NCBI GenBank assembly: GCA_001577635.1 | Contig: LSBP01000024.1 | Span: 1-53,998, forward strand | Origin: Halomonadaceae bacterium T82-2 | GTDB taxonomy: Bacteria; Pseudomonadota; Gammaproteobacteria; Pseudomonadales; Halomonadaceae | Direction of reading: 5' to 3' | DNA length: 53,998 nucleotides | Shown: piece after piece, positions 42,777 to 49,698 of the stretch | Numbering within the stretch: position 1 is the first letter of the stretch | Layout: each line of letters opens with the position of its first letter | Made by a program: the position numbers and the translations under genes | The notes under the pieces: generated by a model | Database searches by the model: none | Told to the model about the DNA's origin: nothing | What the model saw: only the letters and a program-made list of their open reading frames with translations

Positions 42777-43930
42777 CATGTCCGCCCGCCGAGCACCCCG
42801 TCCAGCCGTTCCAGCGCCGCGTCGAGCACGCTCGCCGGGGTGCCGAAGTTCACGCGCACGAAGCCCGGCCAGCCGAAGTCGGCGCCATCGGACAGCGCCA
42901 CCCGGGCGTCCTCGAGCAGCCGCTGCTGGGGCGAGTCACCCAGGCCCGCCTCGCGCAGGTCGAGCCAAGCCAGATAGGTCGCCTCGGGCGGCGTGGCGCG
43001 GACGCCCGGCCAGCCTTCCACCGCCGCGAACAGCCGCCGGCGATTGTCGCGCAGCACGGCCAGCAGCGCCTGCCGCCAGGGCTCGCCGTCGGTATAGGCC
43101 ACCTCGGCGGCCAGCATGCCCAGCACGTTGACATCGGGCATCGCCCCGCGCATCGCCGCCCGCCAGCGCTCGCGCAGTGCCGGGTCGGGAATCACCGCAC
43201 AGGCGCAGCCCAGCCCGGCCACGTTGAAGGTCTTCGACGGCGCCCACAGGGTGACGATGCGCGCCGCCAGCTCCGGAAAGAGCGCCGCCAGCGGGCGGTG
43301 CGGGGCATCGTCGAGGATCAGGTCGCAGTGCAGCTCGTCGGAGACGATCGTCAGGTCGTGGCGCTCGGCCAGCTCGGCGAGCAACGCCAGCTCGGCGAGG
43401 GTCCATACCCGCCCGGTAGGGTTGTGCGGGTGGCACCACAGCAGCAGCCGGGTCTCGGGGGTGATCGCCGCCTCCAGCGCCTCGCGCTCGAGCCGCCAGG
43501 GCTCGCCGGACGCCGCCGGTTCGCCGAGCGCCAGCGTCTGCGCGAGCCGACCGTGCTGCTCGGCCACCTTGAGAAACGGCGGATAGATCGGCGTGACCGT
43601 CAGCACGCCCTCGCCCGGCTCGGTGAGCAGCCGACAGGCCAGGTGCAGCGCCGGCACCACGCCGGGCAGCCAGACCTGCCACGCGGGGTCGATGGGCCAG
43701 TCGTAGTGCGTGGCACTCCAGCGACACAGGGCCTCGCGCAGGCTGTCGGGCGTGGTACCGTAGCCGAACACGCCATGCGCCACCCGCGCCTCGAGCGCCT
43801 CGACGATCGCCGGGGGCGAGACGAAGTCCATGTCGGCCACCCACAGCGGCAGCACGTCCGGCGCGTAGCGGTGCCATTTCTGCGACGGATGCCGGCGACG
43901 GTCGATGGGCGTGGCAAAATCGAAGGACAT
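42776..43930 (-). CDS. patB: PatB/MalY-type PLP C-S lyase (cystathionine beta-lyase-like aminotransferase)
   Basis: The 384-aa fold-type I PLP enzyme is of the MalY/PatB class, which splits cystathionine or cysteine conjugates at the beta carbon. It has LPLWVADMDF, GVFGYGT, the NPTGRVW motif, SDELHCDL and the PLP lysine in APSKTFNVAGL. The Shine-Dalgarno GGGAGG precedes the start at MSFDFATPID. It is divergent from the small gene at 43983 with 52 bp between the starts. Confidence 0.9.
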   Translation of the reverse strand: MSFDFATPIDRRRHPSQKWHRYAPDVLPLWVADMDFVSPPAIVEALEARVAHGVFGYGTTPDSLREALCRWSATHYDWPIDPAWQVWLPGVVPALHLACRLLTEPGEGVLTVTPIYPPFLKVAEQHGRLAQTLALGEPAASGEPWRLEREALEAAITPETRLLLWCHPHNPTGRVWTLAELALLAELAERHDLTIVSDELHCDLILDDAPHRPLAALFPELAARIVTLWAPSKTFNVAGLGCACAVIPDPALRERWRAAMRGAMPDVNVLGMLAAEVAYTDGEPWRQALLAVLRDNRRRLFAAVEGWPGVRATPPEATYLAWLDLREAGLGDSPQQRLLEDARVALSDGADFGWPGFVRVNFGTPASVLDAALERLDGVLGGRT

Positions 43931-43982
43931 GAAACCTCCCGAGACGGATGGATCCTGCAAAAAACGGACACGTGACGCGAAC

Positions 43983-44408
43983 ATGCCCGATTCCCTCTTC
44001 TATGCCAAGGCCATGCGCGGCGCCTCGCGCCTGGTCGACCACTGGCTGCAGATCGGCCAGGCCGCCCCCGACCGCCTGGCGATGATCCTCGCCGATACCG
44101 CACGCCTGGCCGGACTCGGCGAGCCCGAAGACACCCCCGACGGCGCCACCCTGCACGCCTGGAGCCGCGATCAGCGCCCGCCGCTGTGGGCGGCACGCAC
44201 GGCGCTGTTCCTGCTGGTGCAGATGCCCTCGCGCCCCGTGCCGCGCGACGCCTACGAGGGCTGCGCCTGGGCCTACTGCTGGCTGCGCAACCGCGAGTTC
44301 GCCTCGCTCGAGGCGGCCCGCGACGCCCTGCCCGAGCACCTCCGGGACACGCTGGAGGCGCCGCTGGCCGAGGCCTGGGCCGACCAGCGCGGCCGGCGCC
44401 TCGTCTAG
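43983..44408 (+). CDS. Conserved small protein of unknown function
   Basis: The 141-aa mostly helical protein is rich in Ala, Leu, Trp and Arg. It has no signal peptide, membrane helix or recognised domain. It is divergent from patB, and its TAG stop is immediately followed by a 139-bp palindromic repeat. Function unknown. Confidence 0.65.
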   Translation: MPDSLFYAKAMRGASRLVDHWLQIGQAAPDRLAMILADTARLAGLGEPEDTPDGATLHAWSRDQRPPLWAARTALFLLVQMPSRPVPRDAYEGCAWAYCWLRNREFASLEAARDALPEHLRDTLEAPLAEAWADQRGRRLV

Positions 44409-44547
44409 GGTTTGTCCGAAAAGTCGGCGAGCGACGATCAGGCAAGGCAAAAATCAGCGAAAAAGCGGAGTTTACAGGGTGTAAATGAGCATTTTGAGCT
44501 GATTTTTAACGCCGCATGGTCGAGCGCAGCCAGTTTTCAGACAAAGC
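44409..44547 (+). repeat. 139-bp palindromic MITE-like element, copy A
   Basis: The element is an imperfect palindrome centred on 44478. Its ends are inverted repeats (GGTTTGTCCGAAAA against GCTTTGTCTGAAAA), internal arms are AAAAATCAGC (44449-44458) and GCTGATTTTT (44498-44507), and the tip is TTTACA-GGG-TGTAAA. It is flanked on both sides by CTAG (44405-44408 and 44548-44551), a likely target-site duplication. It is AT-rich against its surroundings and encodes nothing. Copy B in opposite orientation is at 49019-49157. Confidence 0.9.
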
Positions 44548-44601
44548 CTAGTGCAGGAGAGATGCCCCGACAGCTCGGGCCCTGAAGGGAGGCGTGCGGG
44601 A

Positions 44602-44664
44602 GAGGATTCATCCTCGACTGCGGCGGCCCGGTGGCGGATTCATCGCGACTGAAGTCGCTCCCAC
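44602..44664 (-). repeat. REP-like palindromic doublet
   Basis: Two short palindromes, GAGGAT-TC-ATCCTC (44602-44615) and GCGACT-GA-AGTCGC (44645-44658), sit in a paired arrangement. On the minus strand the second reads GGGAGCGACTTCAGTCGC, a form typical of repetitive extragenic palindromes in Pseudomonas-like genomes. It lies in the 401-bp gap 44409-44809 together with copy A of the 139-bp element; the rest of the gap has no gene. Confidence 0.55.
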
Positions 44665-44809
44665 GGCCTGGCTCCGGGCGTCCCCCTGTCGAGCGATCAC
44701 ACCCCAGGGTATCCAGCCTAAAGGGGAATGGCGGCACGGCCGCACTGCCTCTAGCGTAGAGGGCTTTTGTGCCGCCGAGGGCGCGGCCTTACGGGTTTCG
44801 AGGAGAGCG

Positions 44810-45625
44810 ATGGACGTCTCGTTGTTGCTGCAGGTCAGCAAGCTGCTGGTGTCGATCGGCGTGGTGCTCGGGCTGTCGCTGGTCGCCGAGCGCCTGAGCA
44901 CCCGCGTGGCCGGGCTGCTGTCCGGCTACCCGCTGGGCACCGCCATCGCGCTGTTCTTCATCGGCGTGGAGATCGGTCCGGGCTTCGCCGCCGAGAGCGC
45001 CGTGCATACCCTGGCCGGCTTCACCGCGACCCTGGCGCTGGGCGGCGGCTACCTGCTGTGCGGCCGCCGCGACGGCCTGCCCGGCGTGCTGCTGGGCACC
45101 GCTGGCGGCCTCGTCGCCTGGCTGGCCGCCAGTGCCGTGCTGGCGGCCATCGACTTCACCCGGGTGAGCGGCACGCTGACCACCCTGGTGGCCATCGCGC
45201 TGTTCATCGGCCTCTACCGGGGCATCCCCGAGCGTCCCGCCACCGGCCGGCGCGCCTTCTCGTGGGCGGCGCTGGCGTTTCGCGCCGGGCTCGCCGCCGC
45301 CATCATCTTCCTCATCACCGGCCTGGCGCACGTGCTGCCGGCGGCCTGGGCCGGGCTGCTCTCGGCCTTCCCGGTGACCATGTTCCCGTTCCTGGTGATC
45401 CTGCACCTGACCCACGGCGCCGGCCCCACCGCCACGGTCATCAAGCACTACCCGGCGGGCCTGGGCTCGCTGCTCAGCTATGCGCTGTGCGTGTCGCTGA
45501 CCTACGACGACTGGGGGCTCGCCGCCGGCACCCTGGCCGGCTTCGCCGCGGCCACCCTGTGGCTGCTGGTCTGGACGCGCCTGCAGGCGCTGCATCGGCG
45601 CCGGCAGCTGGGCGAGGCGGCTTGA
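44810..45625 (+). CDS. Polytopic membrane protein with internal repeat
   Basis: The 271-aa protein has about eight hydrophobic helices and AGGAGAG before the ATG at 44810. Two halves echo each other: AGLLSGYPLG (34-43) and AGLLSAFPVT (181-190), each followed by a hydrophobic helix and a Gly-rich turn. This implies an ancestral duplication with inverted or parallel two-fold symmetry, as in many small transporters. Substrate unknown. First gene of a seven-gene co-directional run. Confidence 0.75.
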   Translation: MDVSLLLQVSKLLVSIGVVLGLSLVAERLSTRVAGLLSGYPLGTAIALFFIGVEIGPGFAAESAVHTLAGFTATLALGGGYLLCGRRDGLPGVLLGTAGGLVAWLAASAVLAAIDFTRVSGTLTTLVAIALFIGLYRGIPERPATGRRAFSWAALAFRAGLAAAIIFLITGLAHVLPAAWAGLLSAFPVTMFPFLVILHLTHGAGPTATVIKHYPAGLGSLLSYALCVSLTYDDWGLAAGTLAGFAAATLWLLVWTRLQALHRRRQLGEAA

Positions 45626-45673
45626 CCGCACCCGCCGCGGGATGGATGCTGAGCCGTCGACAAGGAGTTCGCC

Positions 45674-46084
45674 ATGTTTACCCAGACCCTGACGCCGACC
45701 TTCAGCGACACCGATGCGCTCGGCCATATCAACAACACCCGGATTCCGGTGTGGTTCGAGCTGGGCCGCAACGACGTCTGCCGCCTGTTCACCCCGGACC
45801 TGGACCCGCGCCACTGGGTGCTGATCCTGGCCCGCATGGAGATCGAGTACCGCGCCGAGCTGTTCTTCAATGCGCCGATCGAGATGCGCACCGGCATCGC
45901 GCGCATCGGCACCAGCTCGTTCACCGTCGAGCAGACGCTGCACCAGCATGGCCGCCTCGGGGCCGAGGGGCGCACGGTGATGATCCATTTCGACCACGCC
46001 GCCAAGCAGGCCCGGCCGATTCCCGAGGCGATCCGCGAGGCCCTGGAGGCCCACCGCATCACCGCCGCCGAGGCGGCCACGTGA
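45674..46084 (+). CDS. YbgC/FadM-like hotdog thioesterase
   Basis: The 136-aa 4HBT enzyme has the active-site block FSDTDALGHINNTRIPVWFE with the catalytic Asp in TDALGH, then LARMEIEYRAELFF. An AAGGAG precedes the ATG. Its stop overlaps the GTG of ybaK (GTGA). Confidence 0.88.
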   Translation: MFTQTLTPTFSDTDALGHINNTRIPVWFELGRNDVCRLFTPDLDPRHWVLILARMEIEYRAELFFNAPIEMRTGIARIGTSSFTVEQTLHQHGRLGAEGRTVMIHFDHAAKQARPIPEAIREALEAHRITAAEAAT

Positions 46085-46551
46085 CCCCGGCCATCCGCCG
46101 GCTCGAGCAGGCCGGGGTCGCCTTCGCGGTGCACGAGTACGCCCACGATCCCGCGACACCGGCCTACGGCCAGGAGGCCGCCGAGGCGCTGGGCCTGTCG
46201 CCCGACACGGTCTTCAAGACCCTGCTCGCCCGGCTCGACGGGCAGCGCCTGGCGGTGGCGATCGTGCCGGTCTCCGCCAGCCTGGACCTCAAGGCGCTGG
46301 CGCGGGCCGCCGGAGCCAAGAAGGCCGCCATGGCCGAGGTCGCCGACGCCCAGCGCGCCACCGGCTACGTGGTCGGCGGCATCAGCCCGCTGGGCCAGAA
46401 GCAGCGCCTGGCGACCTTCCTCGATGCCAGCGCCGAGACCCTGGGCCGCCTCCACGTCAGCGGCGGGCGCCGGGGCCTGGAGATCGCCCTGGCCCCCGCC
46501 GACCTGCAGCGCCTCACCGGGGCACGCCTGGTCACCATCGCGCGTCGCTGA
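46081..46551 (+). CDS. ybaK: Cys-tRNA(Pro)/Cys-tRNA(Cys) deacylase YbaK
   Basis: The 156-aa trans-editing factor removes cysteine mis-attached to tRNA(Pro). It has AVHEYAHDP, VFKTLLARLDG with the key Lys, the GYVVGGISPLGQK block and LHVSGGRRGLEI. The start is GTG overlapping the thioesterase stop. Confidence 0.93.
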   Translation: MTPAIRRLEQAGVAFAVHEYAHDPATPAYGQEAAEALGLSPDTVFKTLLARLDGQRLAVAIVPVSASLDLKALARAAGAKKAAMAEVADAQRATGYVVGGISPLGQKQRLATFLDASAETLGRLHVSGGRRGLEIALAPADLQRLTGARLVTIARR

Positions 46552-46577
46552 GCCGCACCCCGACCGGGAGCTTTCCC

Positions 46578-46907
46578 ATGGCAATCCGTTACGACCTGTG
46601 GCTCTTCCCCGACGACGTCGAGCGCCACCGTCGGGTGGAGGGCGAGCTCGAGCGCTACTTCCTCGAGCGCTTCGCCGACTATCCGCACATCCGCTTGTTC
46701 GACGCCGACCCCTACGATTATGATGCGCCGTTCAATCGCCTTTACGATGCCCTGATCGCCCGCGCCACCGACTATTGCGCACGGGAGTGGGCCTACACGC
46801 CGACCCCCGCGCAGCTCAACCAGGCCTTCTTTCGCGCGGTGGCGCGCTCGACCAAATTCCTGCGGAACCCCAGTGATGCTGATCCGAACCGACGTCCCCC
46901 CCGATGA
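46578..46907 (+). CDS. Conserved small protein of unknown function
   Basis: The 109-aa soluble protein is rich in Tyr, Asp and Arg (YDLWLFPDD, DADPYDYDAPF) with no recognised domain or signal. Good Shine-Dalgarno GGGAG. Its 3' end overlaps the DUF501 gene by 32 nt in another frame, implying coupled translation of the two. Confidence 0.65.
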   Translation: MAIRYDLWLFPDDVERHRRVEGELERYFLERFADYPHIRLFDADPYDYDAPFNRLYDALIARATDYCAREWAYTPTPAQLNQAFFRAVARSTKFLRNPSDADPNRRPPR

Positions 46908-47397
46908 GCGGCAACTGGCGATCATCGCCGAGCAACTCGGCCGCGCCCCGCGCGGCATCCAGGCCGTCACCGCCACCGATGGCGAAGGCACCCCGCTGGT
47001 GCTGCGCATGGAGTCGATCGTCGACGACAAGCCCTTCCCCACCCTCTACTGGCTGTGCTCCGAGCGCCTCAAGATCGAGCTGTCGCGGATCGAGGCGGCC
47101 GGGGTGATCAAGCAGCTCGAGGCGCGCCTGCAGGACGACGCCGAGTTCCTCGCCGCCTATCGCCGCAGTCACGAGGACTATGTCGCGCGGCGCTGGGCGA
47201 GCATGCACCCCGAGCACCGCCGCCTGGCCGCCGAGCGCGGCTACGAGACGCTCTTCCGCGAGCGCGGCATCGGCGGCATCGCCAACTGGAACCAGGTGCG
47301 CTGTCTGCATACCCAGTACGCCCATCATCTGGCCGGCGACAACGTGATCGGCCAGTGGCTCGACCGGGAGTACGGCGTGATCGACTGCCTGCCCTGA
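46876..47397 (+). CDS. DUF501-family protein
   Basis: The 173-aa protein resembles the DUF501 family: RAPRGIQAV, ESIVDDKPFPTLYWLCS, then RGIGGIANWNQVRCLHTQYAHHLAGDN in part, with Cys and His residues that could bind metal. Function unknown. An adjacent in-frame GTG at 46873 is possible. It overlaps the preceding gene by 32 nt. Confidence 0.8.
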   Translation: MLIRTDVPPDERQLAIIAEQLGRAPRGIQAVTATDGEGTPLVLRMESIVDDKPFPTLYWLCSERLKIELSRIEAAGVIKQLEARLQDDAEFLAAYRRSHEDYVARRWASMHPEHRRLAAERGYETLFRERGIGGIANWNQVRCLHTQYAHHLAGDNVIGQWLDREYGVIDCLP

Positions 47398-47421
47398 CCC
47401 CGCCGCCTCAAGGAGTTCTGC

Positions 47422-47976
47422 ATGCCCAACGTCTGTGTCTATCTGGGATCCCGCGAGGGCAAGGCCCCGCATTTTCGCGACGCCGCGATCGCGCTGGGCC
47501 GGGCGATCGCCGAGCGCGGCTGGGGGCTGGTCTACGGCGGCGCCCGGGTCGGCCTGATGGGGGCCGTCGCCGATGCCGCCCTGGCCGCCGGCGGCCGGGT
47601 CATCGGCGTGATTCCGCATCACCTGGTCGATCGCGAGATGGCCCACGAGGGGCTGAGCGAGCTGATCCGGGTCGACGACATGCACGAGCGCAAGGCCGCC
47701 ATGGCCGCCCAGGCCGATGGCTTCGTCGCCCTGCCCGGCGGGATCGGCACCCTCGAGGAGCTGTTCGAGGCATGGACCTGGCAGTACCTGGGGCTGCACG
47801 ACAAGCCGGTGGGCGTGCTCGACGTCGACGGCTTCTACCGGCCGCTGCTGCACTTCCTCGACCATGCCGTCGACTGCGGCTTCCTCAACGCCGAGACCCG
47901 TGCCCGTCTCGTCGCCGCCGAGACCCCACCGGCACTGCTCGACCGTCTGCTGCCTGCCGACGCCCGCCTGTCGTGA
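47422..47976 (+). CDS. LOG-family nucleoside monophosphate phosphoribohydrolase
   Basis: The 184-aa Rossmann-fold protein has the LOG signatures [16 protein letters not shown] and [16 protein letters not shown]. The family releases the base from (cytokinin) nucleoside 5'-monophosphates; in non-plant bacteria it probably salvages AMP or damaged nucleotides. AAGGAG precedes the start. Confidence 0.92.
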
Positions 47977-48031
47977 CGACGGCCGCCTCGCTTGGGTAGA
48001 GTGGAACGTCCCCAACAGCGAGGAGAGACGC

Positions 48032-49018
48032 ATGTTCGCCATCGCCATCGATGACCAGCAGGGGTTGAACTGGCAGGAACAGGAGGCACCGCCGCGGCCC
48101 GGCCCCGGAGACGTGCGGATTCAGGTGGCCTGGGCCGGCATGAATCGCGCCGACCTGATGCAGCGGGCGGGCCACTACCCGCCGCCGCCGGGCGTGACCG
48201 ACACCCTCGGCCTGGAAATCAGCGGCACGGTGGTCGAGGCCGGCCCGCGCGTCGAACGGCTGCGCCCGGGCGACAAGGTCTGCGCCCTGCTGGCCGGCGG
48301 CGGCTACGCCGAGGAGGTGGTCGTCGACGCCGCCCAGGTGCTGCCGCTGCCCGCGGGCCTGGGGCTGCGGGAGGCCGCGGCCCTGCCCGAGGTCTTCGCC
48401 ACGGCCTGGCTCAACCTGTTCATGGAGGGCGGGCTGCGCCACGTCGACGGCAGGCCCGAGCGGGTTCTGCTGCATGCCGGGGCCAGCGGCGTGGGGACCG
48501 CCGCGATCCAGCTCTGCAAGGCCTTCGACTACCCCTGCTTCGTGACGGTGGGCAGCGAGGCCAAGGTGGAGGCCTGCCGCCGCCTCGGTGCCGAGGCGGG
48601 CTGGAATCGCCACGACGGCAGCTTCGTCGACGCGGTCCGCGACTGGGGCGGTGCGGATGTCATCCTCGACCCGGTGGGGGCCGGCTACCTGGCGGACAAT
48701 CAGCGCGTGCTGAACCAGGACGGCCGGCTGGTGCTGATCGGCCTGATGGGCGGGCGCACCGCCGAGCTGGACATGGGCCGCATGCTCATGAAACGCCAGC
48801 GCTTCATCGGTTCCACCCTGCGCAGCAAGTCGCCGCGCGCCAAGGGGGCCATTCTCGACAGCCTGCACACCCACGTCTGGCCGCGTCTGAGCCGTGGCGA
48901 GATACGCCCGCTGATCGACCGCGACTGGCCGATCCAGCAGGCGGAGGCCGCGATGGCCTATCTGGAAAGCAACGAAAGCACCGGCAAGGTGCTGCTGGCG
49001 GTCAGCGGCGAGGGCTAA
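48032..49018 (+). CDS. PIG3-type NAD(P)H quinone oxidoreductase
   Basis: The 328-aa medium-chain dehydrogenase lacks zinc ligands and has ADLMQRAGHYPPPPG, TLGLEISGTVVE and the nucleotide loop AGASGVGTAAIQ. This is the quinone oxidoreductase PIG3 subgroup, which reduces quinones by one electron with NADPH. The TAA stop is followed at once by copy B of the 139-bp repeat. Confidence 0.9.
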   Translation: MFAIAIDDQQGLNWQEQEAPPRPGPGDVRIQVAWAGMNRADLMQRAGHYPPPPGVTDTLGLEISGTVVEAGPRVERLRPGDKVCALLAGGGYAEEVVVDAAQVLPLPAGLGLREAAALPEVFATAWLNLFMEGGLRHVDGRPERVLLHAGASGVGTAAIQLCKAFDYPCFVTVGSEAKVEACRRLGAEAGWNRHDGSFVDAVRDWGGADVILDPVGAGYLADNQRVLNQDGRLVLIGLMGGRTAELDMGRMLMKRQRFIGSTLRSKSPRAKGAILDSLHTHVWPRLSRGEIRPLIDRDWPIQQAEAAMAYLESNESTGKVLLAVSGEG

Positions 49019-49157
49019 GCTTTGTCTGAAAACTGGCTGTGCTCGATCATACTGCGTTAAAAATCAGCTCAAAATGCTCATTTACACCTCGTAAACTCCG
49101 CTTTTTCGCTGATTTTTGCCTTGCCTGATCTTCGCTCGCCGACTTTTCGGACAAACC
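49019..49157 (-). repeat. 139-bp palindromic MITE-like element, copy B
   Basis: The copy is the same length as copy A, in opposite orientation, with about 7 differences in 139 positions. The left flank is CTAA (49015-49018), the stop codon of the quinone reductase plus one base; the right flank is TTGG, so no intact target duplication is visible here. Terminal repeats and central TTTAC..GTAAA hairpin are conserved. Confidence 0.9.
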
Positions 49158-49179
49158 TTGGTGCCCTGCCGGAATCGCC

Positions 49180-49698
49180 TCAGGGAGGCGCGTCGCGGCG
49201 CATCGTCTCGACCGCCTCCCGGGTGCGCAGGTAGGTCAGCTGCAGCAGGCGGGCATCCTCGCCGGCGCGGTGGCGCTGGATGCCACGCTCCCGGATCAGG
49301 GCTTCCTTGGTGCGCTTCCAGGCCGCCAGCTGCGCATCGCACAGCAGGGAGCGCAGCGCCTCGAGGCGAAAGCGGGGCAGCATCCCGGCGTGGTGGAACA
49401 GCAGCGACAGCCAGGTATTGTCGTAGCCCCAGCTGTCGCTGTAGGCGATGCCCGCCTCGCTCAGTTCGTCGTTGAGCCAGCGCGCCACTTCCTTCACCGG
49501 GTAGCCCTCGCGGGCCAGGCGATCGCGGCTGATGCCGTGCAGCAGCTCCGCCTTGGGATCCCAGTGCGTCCATTCCGCCTGCGGCTGGATCAGGAAGGCA
49601 CAGACGCTGCCGTCGCCCCGGGCCAGGCCGATCTCGATGGGATAGCTGCCGCGGCCAAAGCCGGACGCTTCGATATCGAGGAGAATGGGCAGCGTCAC
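49180..49698 (-). CDS. DEDD-type 3'-5' exonuclease
   Basis: The 172-aa RNase T/DnaQ-like exonuclease has motif I LLDIEASGFG, HGISRDRLA, a motif II Asp region SDSWGYDNTWL and motif III HRAGEDARLL, so all acidic residues and the His of the DEDDh class are present. Substrate (DNA or RNA) is not decided. The region 49158-49179 is a short spacer to copy B. Confidence 0.85.
   Translation of the reverse strand: MTLPILLDIEASGFGRGSYPIEIGLARGDGSVCAFLIQPQAEWTHWDPKAELLHGISRDRLAREGYPVKEVARWLNDELSEAGIAYSDSWGYDNTWLSLLFHHAGMLPRFRLEALRSLLCDAQLAAWKRTKEALIRERGIQRHRAGEDARLLQLTYLRTREAVETMRRDAPP

Follow-up and report, generated by a model that had tools for sequence, protein, structure and literature searches.

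A miniature transposon of Halomonadaceae bacterium T82-2 that seems to carry a widely shared structured core between exchangeable ends

Two short palindromes, almost identical and in inverted orientation, lie in contig LSBP01000024.1 of Halomonadaceae bacterium T82-2 (assembly GCA_001577635.1; the whole stretch analysed, 53,998 nucleotides, is called the window here), and they raise the question of what they are and of whether their ends and their inside have the same history. The original prediction took them for a miniature inverted-repeat transposable element (MITE), without a gene and moved in trans by an IS5-like transposase. We think it likely, on the basis of sequence comparison, that they are copies of a non-autonomous miniature transposon whose conserved structured core has an origin separate from that of the insertion sequence (IS) with matching ends. 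The element seems, in other words, to combine a MITE framework with a structured core that is widely shared and has used different transposase ends.

The palindromes themselves are where they had been placed, with 95% identity across 139 nt (blastn) between 44409-44547 and the reverse complement of 49019-49157, and the sole inverted repeat of at least 30 nt in 44380-49200 has them in its arms (44409-44551 and 49015-49157, 143 nt, 94% complementary). The terminal repeats, the arms inside them and the TTTAC/GTAAA hairpin at the centre all conform to the description, and the single-strand DNA fold of 44405-44551, at -39.8 kcal/mol, lies well below the -17.1 (sd 2.7) of 200 dinucleotide shuffles (z -8.4). 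The ends of the first palindrome (copy A) are better placed at 44408-44548 on the forward strand, which gives an element of 141 bp (GGGTTTGTCCGAAAA ... TTTTCAGACAAAGCC) with TA as the flank shared by both sides (44406-44407 and 44549-44550, inside CTAG). The CTAG brackets of the original prediction are thus there as sequence, but the shared flank is reduced to TA and the element is slightly longer. Its ends are 15 bp long, with GGGTTTGTCCGAAAA at 44408-44422 on the forward strand and GGCTTTGTCTGAAAA at 44534-44548 on the reverse strand. Copy B, defined in the same way, occupies 49018-49158 on the reverse strand, with TA at 49016-49017 on one side and no TA on the other. An element of 141 bp has room for at most 46 codons, too few for a transposase gene, so that the supposed absence of a gene is borne out.

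The element is repeated far beyond the window. The genome of the same organism (3.42 Mb in 55 contigs) gave 35 blastn matches at E <= 0.01 and 40 matches to a covariance model, R1, of which two are half copies located where a contig stops; all 40 are at E <= 4.5e-12, with none falling between this value and the 0.01 limit. R1 was built from 28 copies of this genome, all found by blastn (33 had been aligned and five were dropped beforehand: L015 and L016 as incomplete, L007, L021 and L028 because of inserts). The inverted arrangement of A and B looks incidental, because this pair is only two of the 40 model matches. Four contigs of the assembly (C4, C36, C51 and C53) start or stop inside an element, and the assembly may conceal more copies or a full IS. 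In the search among relatives, blastn detects the element in 40 genomes out of 58, that of T82-2 included. The most similar of the 13 congeners searched (G002) is without copy A and has a single CTAG at that site; it is also without copy B, and the gene that ends there with TGA ends in T82-2 with TAA, followed by the element. For both copies, which are those that the site-by-site comparison with G002 covers, insertion in the lineage of T82-2 is the simplest reading of the two sequences, and at site A it is favoured over a loss in G002 because the G002 site is a clean single CTAG.

Which transposase could have moved such an element? Another congener (G010) has TAGGSTTTGTNYGAAAA in four inverted pairs of 916 bp each, every one of them at the end of a contig; two pairs have their left flank and two their right flank, which makes at least two copies of an IS. 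This IS is 912 bp long and has TA beside its ends. Of its two open reading frames (ORFs), each matches one half of the IS5-family model NF033580, and the two also match PF13340 and PF01609. Both its ends read GGCTTTGTCTGAAAA, identical to the right end of our element, and the left end of copy A is of the same type. The many copies, the empty sites in a relative and the full IS that the original prediction asked to be looked for were therefore all found, and the three outcomes that it named as fatal (two copies only, no polymorphism among strains, no transposase with matching ends) did not occur. The element is short and gene-less, has terminal inverted repeats, is dispersed and is present or absent between relatives, as a MITE should be. 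However, its likeness to the G010 IS stops after about 25 terminal bp, and the core is not in the IS, nor does the element share the length or the transposase ORFs of the latter. The idea of a MITE moved in trans by an IS5-like transposase thus seems right for the ends and leaves the inside unexplained: what it had missed is that the core occurs with other ends, in other phyla, and under structural constraint.

Two other candidates were rejected. A longer stretch with TAACAGGCTGTTGAAA ends in G179 is an element copy interrupted by other sequence and not an autonomous element. An IS630 origin was suggested by the TA in CTAG and by the IS630 beside the copy on a Pseudomonas amygdali plasmid, but that IS has other ends; the absence of any PF13358 match in the T82-2 genome also counts against it, and a scan by script of the ends of 30 PF13358 loci gave no match to element-type ends. 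On that plasmid (L032, 2899-4147), the IS630-family element and the core element stand side by side with one CTAG in common.

As for the target, 27 of 42 copies of this end type, collected without any condition on the flanking bases, are bordered by TA at either end, which together with the single CTAG at the empty site A indicates a target that contains TA. The flanking 4-mers of these 27 copies are equal in 11 (all CTAG) and unequal in 16, which have only TA in common; on the left the inner base is G in 23 of them, on the right it is C in 24, and the outer bases vary. Because 16 of the 27 have unlike 4-mers, and the equal ones were only CTAG, the duplicated target is probably, to judge from these flanks, the 2-bp TA inside CTAG and not four bases. 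The 4-bp YTAR duplication of the original prediction is therefore the less likely option, and TA alone fits better, with the reservation that decay of the flanks could mimic a 2-bp pattern.

The copies in the T82-2 genome fall into groups with unlike ends and one common core, the inner ~107 nt, for which RNAalifold gives 33 pairs. In copy A this core (R1 positions 1-107) lies at 44425-44531 on the forward strand (122.5 bits, E 7.5e-35) and in copy B at 49035-49141 on the reverse strand (121 bits, E 2.3e-34), scores that are not independent of R1, since both copies are among the sequences that built it. On the forward strand of copy A, the 5' arm AAAAATCAGC (44449-44458) pairs with the 3' arm GCTGATTTTT (44498-44507), and is variable across the family yet covarying; between them, the apical hairpin GAAAAAGCGGAGTTTAC-loop-GTAAATGAGCATTTTGA (44459-44497), with its conserved GA/GA mismatches and conserved G.U pair, is the part that is unchanged across phyla. 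The cores of L007, L021, L028 and L031 carry inserts of about 16 nt (GACYGGGCTCGCRCGCGAG-like, for example) at similar places of the core stem.

Three alignments indicate that the pairing is maintained: A1 (the 28 own-genome copies, aligned by MAFFT), A2 (58 copies drawn from this genome, from relatives and from a sample of the class) and A3 (103 matches at 95 loci, picked in part via the exact core pattern), A2 and A3 being aligned to the model, which leans towards structure. In A1, 98.3% of the cells are paired (86.4% in shuffled alignments), 110 cells covary (27.3 in shuffled alignments) and 22 pairs have changed on both sides; in A2, 31 of the 33 pairs have changed on both sides and 385 cells covary (87.5 shuffled); in A3, 796 cells covary (198.6 shuffled). 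On each of the five measures, all 500 shuffles stayed below the real alignment, and structures slid by 1-3 columns leave only 31-43% of cells paired. The covariation tool warns that related sequences may exceed shuffles without any structure, and cells were counted irrespective of kinship; we consider such an artefact unlikely here because the slid versions drop and because many pair types occur. Some of the positions that are constant in at least 90% of A2 are unpaired (in AGGC, around the G/C before AGT, in TGAG, in the GAG before the 3' arm and in the AA before C), and A3 has the same constant unpaired positions.

The mismatched pairs also tell which form of the DNA may matter. With the constant G.U column excluded, G.U and A.C cells stand at 26:4 in A1, 78:19 in A2 and 103:26 in A3, an excess of G.U of about fourfold; these cells are not independent events, and the covariance model favours G.U when it picks matches, but A1 was not picked in that way. 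Since G.U on one DNA strand is A.C on the other, a constraint on double-stranded DNA predicts equality, and the excess argues that one strand is kept foldable. All this suggests, as far as aligned copies can, that selection acts on the core through the fold of a single strand, which may be RNA or single-stranded DNA.

The core is also found well outside the family of the window. At E <= 0.001, R1 recovers it in 76 of 185 genomes sampled evenly across the class, Gammaproteobacteria (own genome counted), and when named genomes were scanned for the apical pattern in its exact form, at least 120 stretches came up. Among the 80 of them with titles, 17 are from Alistipes, Rikenellaceae or Bacteroidaceae, five from Desulfobacterales or Desulfuromusa and seven from Nitrosomonadales, Nitrosomonas or Gallionella, most of the other 51 being from gammaproteobacteria; going by contig names, the core is thus present in Bacteroidota, Desulfobacterota and Betaproteobacteria. 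R1, which contained no Bacteroidota sequence, gave 47-52 bits (E 4e-13 to 2e-11) on six Bacteroidota contigs, and one contig (L223) carries a SusD-like gene (E 1.4e-10, under the model's own cut-off), as expected of this phylum. Four IMG/VR contigs hold the exact apical pattern; blastn of copy A against the phage and E. coli collections gave no match. The other end types that carry the core include TAACAGGCTGTTGAAAAA, CTGTGTCACAAAGC, GGGYGCCTCTAWAAA, GAGGTTGAATAAAAAG and GAGGGTGTTTACAAAA, the last of which resembles the ends GAGGGTGTAGACAAAAT given for ISPsy19, another IS5-family element, in its published description (PMC3189936).

Bacterial MITEs are usually viewed as decayed insertion sequences with an arbitrary inside, and the main alternative to our interpretation is precisely this: an ordinary MITE, the internal-deletion remnant of an IS5-family element with no function inside, in which covariation arises because palindromes are repaired by template switching during replication. 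The ends do match an IS5-family IS, the general features are those of a MITE, and template switching is known to perfect palindromes. We nevertheless consider this explanation unlikely, since the IS shares only the ~25 terminal bp and not the core, the core has other ends elsewhere, and repair would erase mismatches, yet hardly any positions are as constant as those of the GA/GA mismatches and the G.U pair.

If the core is as widespread as this, could it include a repeat that has long been known? The enterobacterial repeat ERIC (ERIC / IRU / RU-1) is described as a 127-bp imperfect palindrome with TA at its ends (PMC2229807), and it resembles our element in these two traits and in the apical motif; its ends and arms differ. 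The apical part of the E. coli ERIC, GAG-CTTAC-ATAA-GTAAG-TGA, fits the core motif GAG-YTTAC-loop-GTAAR-TGA at 14 of 16 positions, a score reached by only 104 of 200,000 random palindromes with the ERIC fold (Monte Carlo P 5e-4). A model built from A3 without ERIC (R2) finds ERIC at E 2.2e-5 in 644 bp, and ERIC is its best match both in 50 kb of K-12 (E 0.026) and in 40 kb around another locus (E 0.021), although these two tests are not independent, the ERIC copies sharing aligned sequence. We are fairly inclined to regard ERIC as a remote member of the core family, the alternative being convergence on a single motif. To our knowledge, the origin of ERIC and the agent that moves it are still open questions.

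Among the closest known systems is MITEPsy1 of Pseudomonas syringae pv. phaseolicola, described as a gene-less element of 100 nt with IS5-type ends ascribed to ISPsy2, which inserts at CTAG or YTAA with a 4-nt duplication and whose transposition in vivo is reported (PMC3189936). It is like our element in being small and gene-less, with IS5-type ends and a CTAG target, but its ends (GGAAGGTCTGAAAAAGCC) are unlike those of the element, and its 4-nt duplication contrasts with the probable 2-bp TA here. RUP and Correia elements are likewise described as small, palindromic, non-autonomous repeats with TA at their ends, RUP being tied to IS630-Spn1 (PMC2229807); RUP differs from our element by this link, the element having ends that match the IS5 family in a genome without PF13358. 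The intergenic repeat R178 of Pseudomonas fluorescens (101 bp, with 11-bp internal inverted repeats, present in all three strains compared) resembles the element going by its published description (PMC2718517), and we mention it as a lead. Rfam returned no family at the gathering score, the best weak match to copy A having E 2, and among the matches listed in our search of the open-access literature (with few subscription papers) there is no description of a core superfamily. As an element, ours is a MITE; a common core with exchangeable ends is not described in the literature searched or in Rfam.

The scenario that we favour, a miniature transposon around a core of separate origin, would then run as follows. 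The transposase of the G010-type IS, or of a close relative, would cut the ends of the element in trans, and the element would then be inserted at a TA, in most cases one within CTAG and in many cases one belonging to a TAG or TAA stop codon, with little harm. Selection on one strand in its folded state would maintain the ~107 nt of the core, as the covariation, the near-fixed unpaired bases and the preference for G.U over A.C argue, and the core would have changed transposase partners in the course of its history, which is probable because it sits within several unlike terminal repeats in several phyla. The folded strand would meet a widely conserved host factor that helps the element to spread or to be tolerated. 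We infer this role of the core, and incline only slightly to a contact as RNA over one as single-stranded DNA. In its broadest form, which we propose tentatively, as possible rather than probable, the core would be ancient, shared at least by Pseudomonadota, Desulfobacterota and Bacteroidota and including ERIC, and would have repeatedly swapped its ends and its transposase partner while its fold was kept by a conserved host factor.

The position of the element relative to genes bears on this. The 167-aa ORF at 43905-44408 (forward strand) has its TAG stop (44406-44408) on the left junction of copy A, and the 433-aa ORF as listed at 47717-49018 (forward strand) has its TAA stop (49016-49018) on the junction of copy B, reading into the right end of the element. 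The same is frequent elsewhere: in the own family, 31 of 69 copies (from 80 listed loci, the remainder being duplicates or under the core score) lie directly at the stop codon of a gene, while random stretches taken from these loci do so at a rate of 1.2% per strand. In 26 of these cases the gene runs into the element at its right end, in the other five at its left. In a wider set (90 copies from 120 of the named-genome loci, minus duplicates and copies near locus ends), 35 copies have a stop no more than 30 nt from where the left end is expected and 41 have one equally close to the expected right end; nine left and eight right cases each fall at one single offset, with TAG or TAA. We rest no mechanism on the 26:5 orientation bias, the wider set being without it, and a crude count of gene orientations (38 antisense against 21 sense tandem contexts in three sets, 10:11 in one of them) was set aside because it missed the gene beside copy A.

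These positions could mean that the element is first of all a regulatory RNA of mRNA 3' ends, a hairpin acting on the termination or stability of mRNA, in the way that has been reported from Yersinia for ERIC and RNase E. The frequent stop-codon position, the preference for G.U over A.C on one strand, the similarity to ERIC and the report that ERIC destabilises mRNA via RNase E in one orientation (PMC10969869, PMC2229807) all speak for it, the last being in our analysis a pointer towards RNA and not evidence of our own. We think this explanation improbable all the same, because a TA target combined with selection against broken genes also predicts the stop-codon position, and because in 26 of the 31 own-family cases the strand that folds is the antisense strand of the abutting gene.

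A bias relative to replication was seen in some genomes, the folding strand opposing the fork in 63 of 94 copies of five own-family genomes (G002, G006, G023, G024 and G026) and running along it in 31, with 21:21 in two others (136 of 140 matches were used, four on a second contig being excluded, with exact lengths for two of the seven genomes and termini assumed to lie opposite dnaA). That the core is a single-stranded DNA hairpin serving as substrate of a recombinase or replication protein, like an attC or a primosome assembly site, with the outer repeats secondary, would agree with this bias, with the strand-specific fold and with the near-fixed unpaired bases, but it is very improbable given that the bias is absent in two genomes, that the ends match a transposase-coding IS, and that only the element, without the gene cassette expected with an integron attC, was gained at the single CTAG of site A.

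Several results weigh against the interpretation that we prefer, that of a mobile MITE around a conserved core, and should be acknowledged together. Its mobility is deduced from sequence comparison. The IS that shares the element's ends belongs to a congener, and none was seen in the assembly of T82-2, where 33 places with such ends (one mismatch allowed) include no inverted pair 0.6-3 kb apart. A scan of the collected loci for such pairs gave the G010 IS, the interrupted copy (L188) and one pair in L273, and revealed no other autonomous element; only the terminal type of these two palindromes is tied to an IS. The TA target is not clearly marked out when all end types are taken together (TA-anchored repeats in 74 of 218 copies, AG in 99), the outermost shared pair in 138 copies is AG in 21 and TA in 20, and site B in G002 reads TGA and not TA. 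The relationship with ERIC is weak with R1, which finds the right place with E 2.2 over 27 kb, and a sequence-only profile of A3 (nhmmer) does not report ERIC at all. The antisense majority in the own family fits poorly with a helpful mRNA role for the abutting gene, and the orientation bias is not reproduced in the 90-copy wider set (17 left only, 23 right only). Finally, three short palindromes keep the ends without the core, and the core is thus not needed for persistence at a site. These palindromes, about 46 bp long, are at L063 (C20:39096-39143, in the genome of T82-2), just before 2694 in L097 and just before 1939 in L098, the core having gone, apparently between short GAGCG repeats.

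A second, different repeat adjoins copy A at 44565-44701, and has three more matches in G002 (120-136 bp, 84-86%).

What would the finding mean for elements of this kind? In this element conservation lies inside, and it is the ends that change; the prediction is that the core should matter for spread or tolerance whichever transposase is at work. If the broadest form of our proposal is correct, the core would be a hyper-parasite that exploits insertion sequences and has its own function. The core family offers a possible home for ERIC, and the structure model allows such elements to be found in many genomes.

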